Positions 39,203-42,456 of a stretch of DNA of 64,000 nucleotides are shown one piece after another. Made by a program: the position numbers and the translations under genes. The DNA is taken from the NCBI RefSeq assembly GCF_004307425.1, contig NZ_SEWZ01000003.1, positions 558,001 through 622,000 on the forward strand, given 5' to 3'. The notes under the pieces were generated by a model. It searched no databases. It was not told where the DNA came from and was given only the letters and a program-made list of their open reading frames with translations. Every line of letters begins with the position of its first letter. Within the stretch, counting starts at the first letter, position 1. The DNA is from Aquirufa antheringensis (lineage in GTDB: Bacteria; Bacteroidota; Bacteroidia; Cytophagales; Spirosomataceae).

Positions 39203-40087
39203 TTGAGTACGCTACAAATTGAACGTATTGATACCTTTTCAGGGCACCGTGGACCAGTTTATTCGCTGGAAAAGGGTGTTGATTCCTTGTTTTATTCGGC
39301 GGGTTCTGATGGCTGGGTAGTACAATGGAATCTCGCAAAACCGGATTTGGGGAAAGTCATTGCCCAAGTTGAAGGTTCTGTCTATGCGATGAAGCTGGAT
39401 GCTGCCGGTATCTTATGGGTAGGCCATAACTACGAAGGTATTCAGGGAATCCAAGTAGCCGATCAGGCGCAGGTATTCTCGATTCCAACGAAGGGTTTAT
39501 CCTTATTTTCTATTGCTTTTGTGGGTTCTAATGCCTGGATTGGACATAATGAGGGTTTGATTACGGTGGTGGATATGGCTACAAAATCGGTCATAAAGCA
39601 CATCAAAGCGAGTTCAAAAAGCGTGCGTTGTTTCTGTACTTTAGCGGATGATTTCGTGGCTGTAGGCTATTCTGATGGTTTTATTCGTGTTTTTGACACT
39701 ACTTTTCAATTAGTGCACTCATTCAAGGCGCATGAATCGTCTGTTTTTTCGCTCCAAAGCAGGGGAGGGGAACTCTTCAGCGTAGGCAAAGATGCGCGAA
39801 TTAAGCGTTGGAGTGCTGATTTTCAGCTTCTAAACGAAGTGATTGGGCATATATATGCCATTCATGATTTACAGTTTTCTCCGGATGGCAAATGGTTTGC
39901 GACGGCCAGTATGGATAAGACGGTGAAAGTTTGGGAAAGTGAGACTTTAACCTTACGAAAAGTACTAGATGCTTCCAGGCACGGAGGGCATAAGAATTCG
40001 GTTAATAAACTAATCTGGTCTTCATTCGACGATTTGCTGGTGTCTGCTTCAGACGACAAAAATCTTTCTATTTGGAAAATTCACTAA
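39203..40087 (+). CDS. WD40-repeat protein with a probable TTG start
   Basis: A 294-residue beta-propeller built of six or seven WD-like repeats, for example FSGHRGPVYSLE, ASMDKTVKVWES and SASDDKNLSIWKIH. No signal peptide is seen, so a cytoplasmic scaffold is likely. No in-frame ATG precedes the first repeat: the nearest ATG at 39192 is in another frame, and the frame opens with TTG at 39203. The DivIVA-like gene follows 40 bases downstream on the same strand. Confidence 0.8.
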   Translation: MSTLQIERIDTFSGHRGPVYSLEKGVDSLFYSAGSDGWVVQWNLAKPDLGKVIAQVEGSVYAMKLDAAGILWVGHNYEGIQGIQVADQAQVFSIPTKGLSLFSIAFVGSNAWIGHNEGLITVVDMATKSVIKHIKASSKSVRCFCTLADDFVAVGYSDGFIRVFDTTFQLVHSFKAHESSVFSLQSRGGELFSVGKDARIKRWSADFQLLNEVIGHIYAIHDLQFSPDGKWFATASMDKTVKVWESETLTLRKVLDASRHGGHKNSVNKLIWSSFDDLLVSASDDKNLSIWKIH

Positions 40088-40096
40088 ATAATTTCC

Positions 40097-40104
40097 TATT
40101 TTAG
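40097..40104 (+). promoter_or_regulatory. Possible -7 element of the DivIVA-like gene
   Basis: TATTTTAG differs from TAnnTTTG by one base and lies 23 bases before the ATG at 40128. The same variant is seen upstream of glgB. Confidence 0.35.
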
Positions 40105-40127
40105 CGTTTCTATATCTAAATCAATCA

Positions 40128-41027
40128 ATGTTGGAAGCTTCCTTTTCTAAATCTTTTCGCGGTTATGATGTCTCAGAAGTAGACGCTTATGTTCAAAGTG
40201 TACAAGACTTTGAGACCGAATCACAAAACTCTTTGGCTAAATCAAATCAGAAAGTAGCTGATTTAGAAGCGGAAGTAGCTCGTTTAAGAGAAATTGAATC
40301 CAGTTTATTTAGAGCGCTAAAACTAGCCGAAGAAAGTCAGCAAAACTTCAGTGCTAAGATGGAGAAAGAGGCAAAAGGAATCCTTGATAAAGCGTCAAAG
40401 GAGGCCGATGCCATCAAAAAGAAAGCAGAAACAGAGGCTCAAAAGCAGTCGTTATTATCCGAAAATGAGCGTAAACAAACCCTAGCGCAAGCTGGTCAGG
40501 AATTAAAGGAACAAGAGCGCCAATTGCGCAATTTGCAAGAGGCACAGAAGGAAATAGCGGCGCAATTAAAGCAAATAGCGGAGCAAACATTAGGGTCTAT
40601 TTCCCAATGGAACGCGACCGAATTAGTGAAGCCAGTGGCTTCTATCGATACTGTTGCTGCACCAGCGGCTAAAAGAGGTCGCAAGCCAGGTGTGAAAAAT
40701 AAGCCTAAATCTAAGGCAAAATCAGCTACCAAAGCTAAAGTCGCGAAATCTAAGGCCGTAGCGAAACCAAAAGCTGTTTCTAAACCGAAAGCAGTCGCGA
40801 AACCTAAGGCAGTTAAAGCGGAAGTTCCTGCTAAGCCCAAAGCTGTTCCAGCAAAACGTGGTCCTAAGCCGAAAGTGCAAGCCGCAATGCCAGCTGCTAA
40901 ACGCGGTCCTAAGCCTAAAATCACTTTGGAAACTGTATCTGACGAAGGCCTACCTACCTTGAACAAGGTGTTAGAGGCATACGCAAAGTCATCAGGTCCA
41001 CGCGGTAAAGTAGGGGAGATCAACTAA
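40128..41027 (+). CDS. DivIVA-like coiled-coil protein with lysine-rich, AT-hook-like C-terminal tail
   Basis: The first 30 residues (FRGYDVSEVDAYVQSVQDFE) and the segment at 61-105 (LFRALKLAEESQQNF then AKGILDKASKEADAIKKKA) follow the DivIVA pattern of a membrane-curvature-sensing N-terminus and a coiled coil. The coil continues to about 155. Residues 180-264 are histone-H1-like: several KPKAV units and three AT-hook-like motifs, RGRKPG (183-188), RGPKPK (244-249) and RGPKPK (259-264). The tail ends in LPTLNKVLEAYAKSSG. It may link membrane or septum to DNA, but no such function is established. folB starts 1 base downstream. Confidence 0.8.
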   Translation: MLEASFSKSFRGYDVSEVDAYVQSVQDFETESQNSLAKSNQKVADLEAEVARLREIESSLFRALKLAEESQQNFSAKMEKEAKGILDKASKEADAIKKKAETEAQKQSLLSENERKQTLAQAGQELKEQERQLRNLQEAQKEIAAQLKQIAEQTLGSISQWNATELVKPVASIDTVAAPAAKRGRKPGVKNKPKSKAKSATKAKVAKSKAVAKPKAVSKPKAVAKPKAVKAEVPAKPKAVPAKRGPKPKVQAAMPAAKRGPKPKITLETVSDEGLPTLNKVLEAYAKSSGPRGKVGEIN

Positions 41028-41028
41028 G

Positions 41029-41385
41029 ATGGCAAATTACCAAGTTTCTATTGATGACATACGTATTTTTGCGTTTCACGGATTATATCCCGAAGAGCGC
41101 ATTTTAGGGAATTGGTATACGCTGGATGTAGTAGTGGAGTCTGAAACGCAGCCTGCTTTTTCAGATGATATCGCTAACACGATCGACTATTCTCAGATTT
41201 ATGCCATTTGCAAGCAGCTAATGGCAGAACCGGTGGATTTATTAGAAACCGTTGCAGAAGCCATTGCTCAAAAAATCAAGTCTGAGCTAACGGAAGAAGT
41301 AGCTGTTTTAGTTCAAATTTCAAAGGAAAATCCCCCTATGGGAGTCTCGGCTGGTAGAAGTACAGTCGTTTATCGTCTCAATTGA
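41029..41385 (+). CDS. folB: Dihydroneopterin aldolase
   Basis: Folate pathway enzyme of 118 residues. The tunnelling fold is recognised from IFAFHGLYPEERILGNWYTL, DYSQIYAICKQLM and the C-terminal KENPPMGVSAGRSTVVYR with the conserved lysine. It follows the DivIVA-like gene after one base. A second folate gene, folC, lies at 54 kb. Confidence 0.93.
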   Translation: MANYQVSIDDIRIFAFHGLYPEERILGNWYTLDVVVESETQPAFSDDIANTIDYSQIYAICKQLMAEPVDLLETVAEAIAQKIKSELTEEVAVLVQISKENPPMGVSAGRSTVVYRLN

Positions 41386-41433: not shown

Positions 41434-42456
41434 ATGCGTCACCAAGTTACCATTAAAGATATTGCCAAACAGCTGGGAGTTTCAGTTGCGACCGTATCCA
41501 GGGCTTTACGTGATTTGCCAGATATTCATCCAGATACGAAGAAATTAGTCTTGGATCTTGCTAAAGAGCTTGATTATCAGCCTAATGTACTCGCTACCAG
41601 TTTAGTTAAATCCAAGACTAAAACACTTGGTCTCATCGTTCCTGATCTAGGTTACTATTTTTTTTCTACGGTAGTGAAAGCTGTTGAAGATGCCGCTATT
41701 GCTGCCGGATATTCCTTACTTATCGCTCAAACTCAAGAGTCTTTCGAGCGTGAATTAACGAACATTCAAAACCTTTCTCGTTCCCAAGTGGAAGGCATTA
41801 TTATTTCCTTATCGCGTGAAACGGTCAATTTTGAACATTTGACTCGTTTGCAACGAAGAGGAATTCCACTGGTCTTTTTTGACCGAGATAGTGAAGAAAT
41901 AGATGCATCTAAGGTAATGGTCGATAATGAGCAGTCTGCTTATGAGGCTGTTAAGCACCTGATTGAAAATGGGTGCAAGCGCATTGCTTTTTTAGCAGGG
42001 CCCAAGAACGTTTCTGTTAGTAACCAACGGCGCTTAGGTTATTCAAGAGCGCTTCAGGAGGCTGGAATTGAAGCTGACCCTTCCCTTATCATACATAGTG
42101 ATTACTTCCAGGACTCAGCGATTGCGAAGACTCATCAGTTGATGAAAGAGCCGAATCGTCCAGATGGTATATTGGTTGTATCTGATCGTTTAGCGATTGG
42201 TGTGTTAATTGCGCTTCGGGAATTAAATATCTCGATTCCAGAAGAGGTTAAAATAGTGAGTTTTAATAATGAACCTATTTGTTCTTTAGTTTCCCCTACG
42301 ATTTCCTCTATTGCCCAGCCTTTAGAAGAAATAGGCCGCTTATCCGTTGAATTATTAATAGAGCAGATCGAACATAAAACGGATAATCCGGTTCCTAGAG
42401 TGGAAGTTTTAAAGACAAAATTGATTGTACGGGAATCTTCCGTTCGCAAAAAATAA
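41434..42456 (+). CDS. LacI-family transcriptional regulator
   Basis: A 340-residue repressor-type protein. The N-terminal helix-turn-helix (VTIKDIAKQLGVSVATVSRAL) and hinge helix (QPNVLATSLV) are followed by a periplasmic-binding-like sugar domain with GLIVPDLGYYFF. It probably responds to a sugar, but no transport or catabolic genes lie around it: folB is before it and gyrA after it, so the regulated genes must be elsewhere. Confidence 0.92.
   Translation: MRHQVTIKDIAKQLGVSVATVSRALRDLPDIHPDTKKLVLDLAKELDYQPNVLATSLVKSKTKTLGLIVPDLGYYFFSTVVKAVEDAAIAAGYSLLIAQTQESFERELTNIQNLSRSQVEGIIISLSRETVNFEHLTRLQRRGIPLVFFDRDSEEIDASKVMVDNEQSAYEAVKHLIENGCKRIAFLAGPKNVSVSNQRRLGYSRALQEAGIEADPSLIIHSDYFQDSAIAKTHQLMKEPNRPDGILVVSDRLAIGVLIALRELNISIPEEVKIVSFNNEPICSLVSPTISSIAQPLEEIGRLSVELLIEQIEHKTDNPVPRVEVLKTKLIVRESSVRKK

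Follow-up and report, generated by a model that had tools for sequence, protein, structure and literature searches.

The window analysed here, a stretch of 64,000 nucleotides from Aquirufa antheringensis, encodes a 299-residue protein that, judged by its sequence, is a true DivIVA and the sole DivIVA-type scaffold of its genome, and that probably contacts DNA directly through a basic C-terminal tail. The explanation favoured here, taken as a whole, is that this protein is the housekeeping DivIVA of its lineage and that its scaffold reaches the DNA by way of the tail, and it is given a probability of roughly 0.5. What would be gained if it were true? A DivIVA that binds DNA by its own tail would represent a one-protein membrane-to-nucleoid tether, and the occurrence of basic and acidic tails in close relatives provides a natural experiment on the function of the DivIVA tail. 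The DivIVA proteins of Gram-negative bacteria have been little studied (PMC7186360), and the titles and abstracts of the open-access literature searched contain no description of DivIVA in Bacteroidota or of this tailed protein.

The assignment to DivIVA is strongly supported by the combination of profile matches, synteny and the presence of orthologues, a DivIVA match being found in 180 of the 181 family genomes that are at least 90% complete. The first-pass annotation had recognised the DivIVA pattern in the N-terminus and the coil, and had staked its reading on a profile match. Such a match is found both with PF05103 (E 3.2e-12, 47 bits against a cut-off of 28) and with the TIGR03544 DivI1A_domain (25.2 against a cut-off of 22). 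When the SKSFRGYD loop is aligned to 2wuj, F10 and R11 are the equivalents of F17 and R18 of the Bacillus subtilis protein, residues that are essential for negative-curvature sensing according to a study of Bdellovibrio DivIVA (PMC7186360), and both are unchanged across the 28 sequences of alignment A3. In a sequence comparison with solved structures, GpsB and B. subtilis DivIVA came closest, although the E-values of 0.024 and 0.2 are weak. The gene is present in single copy, as a profile search of the genome found no second DivIVA over the cut-off. The protein thus shares with the DivIVA / Wag31 / GpsB family (PF05103) the FRGYD loop, the conserved F and R, the long coiled coil and a divergent C-terminal tail, whereas it departs from that family in the strongly basic tail with AT-hook-like motifs seen in its genus and in the WD40 and folB neighbours seen in much of Cytophagales.

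A structure prediction, which had been proposed as a check, agrees with this architecture. The AlphaFold2 monomer, a model of a single chain, has a long helix after the N-terminal domain, as in the DivIVA family, followed by a tail at about residues 167-272 that is disordered (pLDDT mostly <50) and by a short C-terminal helix of moderate confidence (Table 1). There is no separate membrane domain in the model, and membrane association, if any, would derive from the DivIVA N-terminus.

Table 1. Features of the divIVA locus, with positions counted from the first letter of the window
Feature	Position	Strand	Basis
WD40 beta-propeller gene, directly upstream, 40-base gap	39203..40087	+	PF00400
DivIVA-family protein	40128..41027	+	ORF of 299 aa, ATG to TAA; profile matches
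DivIVA domain, residues 4-115	40137..40472	+	PF05103; FSKSFRGYD loop with F10, R11
Long continuous helix / coiled coil, residues 15-164	40170..40619	+	AlphaFold2, block mean pLDDT mostly 92-98
Disordered Lys/Ala/Pro-rich basic tail	40656..40946	+	pLDDT mostly <50; charge; composition
AT-hook-like motif 1, KRGRKPGVKNK, residues 182-192	40671..40703	+	Genome-unique pattern; invariant in 7 genomes
18-bp tandem repeat encoding KPKAV units	40739-40813	+	Repeat in tail DNA
AT-hook-like motif 2, KRGPKPK, residues 243-249	40854..40874	+	Pattern confined to DivIVA gene
AT-hook-like motif 3, KRGPKPK, residues 258-264	40899..40919	+	Positional equivalent of sister-genus TRGRPRK
Conserved C-terminal module GLPTLNKVLEAYAKSSGPRGKVGEIN, short helix at 278-287	40947..41024	+	Alignment A3; AlphaFold2
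folB (dihydroneopterin aldolase), starts 2 bases past divIVA stop codon	41029..41385	+	PF02152

The net charge of the tail is +27 over 136 residues with the C-terminus included, and 91 residues of it contain 26 lysines, 22 alanines and 14 prolines. Being disordered, rich in Lys/Ala/Pro and of high net positive charge, it resembles the lysine-rich tail of histone H1. It holds the elements first read from it, namely four KPKAV units together with RGRKPG at residues 183-188 and RGPKPK at 244-249 and 259-264. A chance origin of the RG[RP]KP motifs is rejected both by shuffling and by whole-genome pattern searches. In 200,000 composition-preserving shuffles of the 91-residue tail one motif arose 275 times and two or more never, compared with the three observed, and within the 2.5 Mb genome the DNA encoding RGPKPK (two occurrences) and KRGRKP (one occurrence) lies entirely within the DivIVA gene. 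The 11 residues of KRGRKPGVKNK are invariant in seven genomes of the clade while their codons carry many synonymous changes, and the motif therefore looks as if it is kept by selection. However, the canonical AT-hook consists of a GRP core flanked by basic residues (PMC11354804), and because this core is missing from all three motifs of the window (RGRKP, RGPKP, RGPKP) they can be called AT-hook-like only. The motifs of the original description are thus real, above chance and unique in the genome, but they are not canonical hooks. A check against AT_hook profiles, also suggested at the outset, gave no match to the window tail; the canonical TRGRPRK segment of sister genera is equally unmatched in these scans, which indicates that such profiles are too short to be sensitive. 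The relatives L008-L013 carry the GRP core as VGRPKS or similar.

Among relatives a DivIVA match was found in 53 of 59. In a class sample, a match starting at the N-terminus occurred in 8 of 8 listed genomes of the order and in 17 of 189 others, a search that used a Cytophagales profile and may miss distant DivIVAs. It is in the charge of the tail that the window's lineage stands apart. A lysine-rich basic tail (net +8 to +40) is present in each of the 33 genus members examined, whereas in the other genera of the family (29 loci) the tail is acidic, net -2 to -40, and closes with a conserved SFFD tip. Of 19 loci that represent other families of the order, 17 have the tip as well. The mean tail charge per 100 residues is +14.3 in the genus versus -14.9 in the other genera. 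One further genome near the genus, L054, is intermediate, with a tail of +7 and the tip absent. In the window's lineage the acidic tail has been replaced by a basic one, and this is a lineage-specific charge inversion. A general shift to basic proteins was considered and rejected for the seven neighbouring genes, which display no charge change between the genus and its outside comparable to that of the DivIVA tail, three of the seven having been compared with only two genus sequences. Conservation of the basic tail in Cytophagales, on which the first-pass annotation had made its idea depend, therefore receives a divided answer: the lysine-rich tail holds throughout the genus, but outside the lineage (the genus and the one nearby genome) the linker is acidic. 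The AT-hook-like motifs are present in 13 of the 33 genus members and none is found in the other 20. With so many members lacking the motif, and with acidic relatives outside the lineage, DNA binding cannot be a property of this DivIVA in general. The DivIVA relative at L040:4978-6000 has a tail of extreme acidity (net -69 over 169 residues).

Where, then, did the basic tail come from? In nine of nine sister genomes examined the positive charge of the linker peaks in a 15-residue stretch directly before the C-terminal GLPT module, at +4 to +6 as against +2 or less elsewhere, and in four of the nine (L055, L056, L065 and L081) this patch contains a canonical AT-hook, TRGRPRK or ARGRPRK. The last KRGPKPK of the window occupies the same place. 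Since the patch already precedes GLPT in the sister genera, the basic tail looks like an expanded older element rather than a newly joined domain, and to describe it as an H1-like tail "fused" to DivIVA was not quite right. On a quick tree that combines the DivIVA core with five neighbouring genes, the charge sign, the GLPT module and a helix-hairpin-helix domain found in other DivIVAs of the family each require one change, the tip requires two and the hook four. The placement of L054 on this tree is less sure, as a long branch leads to the basic-tailed lineage and the program warns about long branches.

How might such a protein work? Family membership and the conserved residues make it probable that the N-terminal domain attaches to negatively curved membrane at septum and poles, with the long coiled coil assembling into a multimeric scaffold. 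The disordered basic tail would extend into the cytoplasm, where charge and minor-groove contacts would most likely allow it to bind DNA. The membrane scaffold would then touch the nucleoid directly, in a manner that elsewhere involves a separate adaptor (RacA, ParB or a nucleoid-associated protein). The C-terminal GLPT helix may in turn dock a putative protein partner. The case for DNA binding is built from charge, motifs, conservation and the precedent of Myxococcus xanthus CarD, in which a disordered tail with RGRP hooks has been tested and binds AT-rich DNA (PMC4374960). The HMGA-like tail of CarD is also an intrinsically unfolded C-terminus, with its RGRP AT-hooks placed behind an acidic segment (PMC4374960), an order that the sister-genus DivIVAs share. 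CarD differs in being a regulator that binds RNA polymerase and in having four canonical hooks, whereas no motif of the window protein contains a GRP core.

Closer to DivIVA itself, there is a functional analogy with the DivIVA-RacA pair of B. subtilis, in that a DivIVA scaffold would be linked to DNA at the pole. The DNA-binding protein RacA, however, is distinct from the DivIVA to which it binds, and it recognises specific sites (PMC8233713), whereas the putative DNA-binding part here lies within DivIVA and would be non-specific or AT-preferring. In Mycobacterium tuberculosis the DivIVA homologue Wag31 is physically linked to the DNA-binding protein Rv3852 (PMC8233713); unlike the present case this involves two separate proteins, with contact via the N-terminal region of Wag31. 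The basic tail with its AT-hook-like motifs may tie the DivIVA membrane scaffold straight to the chromosome.

Disordered tails rich in lysine have other ligands as well (RNA, anionic membrane or acidic proteins), and this counts against the DNA-binding reading. The tail could be a polycation that makes the scaffold bind more strongly to anionic membrane lipids, or that interacts with RNA or other polyanions, with DNA not its physiological ligand, a proposal that we regard as somewhat unlikely. It draws on the membrane association of the protein family and on the 20 genus members that keep a lysine-rich tail without AT-hook-like motifs, so that the conservation of charge extends further than that of the hook. 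A polycation as such does not, however, fit easily with RG-P motifs that are unique in the genome and conserved in one clade despite synonymous divergence, nor with the canonical TRGRPRK hook that occupies this position in the acidic linkers of sister genera.

It is also conceivable that the tail is a flexible spacer, the composition of which has drifted by short-repeat slippage, with only its length and the GLPT helix being of consequence. The tail does vary in length and does contain an 18-bp tandem repeat, and within the DivIVA C-terminus conservation is highest in the GLPT module, with L275, P276, T277, V281 and K287 invariant in alignment A3. The spacer account is nevertheless distinctly unlikely. 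One change on the tree explains the charge sign, with no reversion in the 18 basic-tailed rows, the hook motifs are conserved in their amino acids amid synonymous divergence, and the shift has no comparable counterpart in neighbouring proteins. Finally, the basic patch and the GLPT helix could together dock an acidic protein, such as the one encoded by the adjacent WD40 gene, with no contact to DNA, but even though patch and module are linked across nine sister genomes, LPTV-type motifs recur in some linkers and the WD40 gene is a conserved neighbour, this is very improbable, given that a conserved neighbour is no evidence of contact, that the WD40 protein, with a mean charge of -1 per 100 aa, is no more than mildly acidic and that a docking motif alone would leave the tail expansion to +40 unexplained.

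The genome search found no further occurrence of the GLPT module. A related pattern, LPTVxx[IV][LV], is repeated inside the acidic DivIVA linkers of L055, L056, L063-L065, L072, L081 and L082, with six copies in L056, the GLPT one included. The tip GSFFD[QENS][IL] ends DivIVA C-termini across Cytophagales families (L031-L083), is lost in the window's lineage and looks like a short docking motif.

In three other genera the same DivIVA linker carries an 85-residue domain (13 sequences: L060, L068, L070, L132-L141). Its structure model is confident. Of three sequences compared with the helix-hairpin-helix profile HHH_5, one scored over the cut-off (31.4 against 27) and the other two fell short of it. 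The fold search with this domain gave no significant match, the best being RadA, Y-family polymerases and an acidic-repeat domain of NusA, and there is a further resemblance to the C-termini of NuoE, ribosomal L21 and S2, and phasin models. Given the fold search, and as similar segments occur in proteins without known DNA binding, DNA binding by the domain is no more than possible. That DivIVAs of the family gained DNA-contacting C-termini more than once, as an AT-hook/H1-like tail in one case and a helix-hairpin-helix domain in the other, so that the scaffold would hold the nucleoid without an adaptor, is a tentative idea with the balance against it.

With regard to genome context, no MinD over the cut-off was found in the genome, and ParAB is present. 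The WD40 gene adjoins divIVA in 33 of 33 genus, 27 of 30 other-genus and 10 of 19 other-family loci, and folB does so in 31 of 33, 28 of 30 and 14 of 19, respectively. The order WD40-divIVA-folB (39203-41385 in the window) is kept over much of Cytophagales, and beyond the order, too, some loci have WD40 near DivIVA. A gene for a LacI-type regulator (41434-42456), which lies between folB and gyrA, stays with divIVA in the genus and its sister genera.
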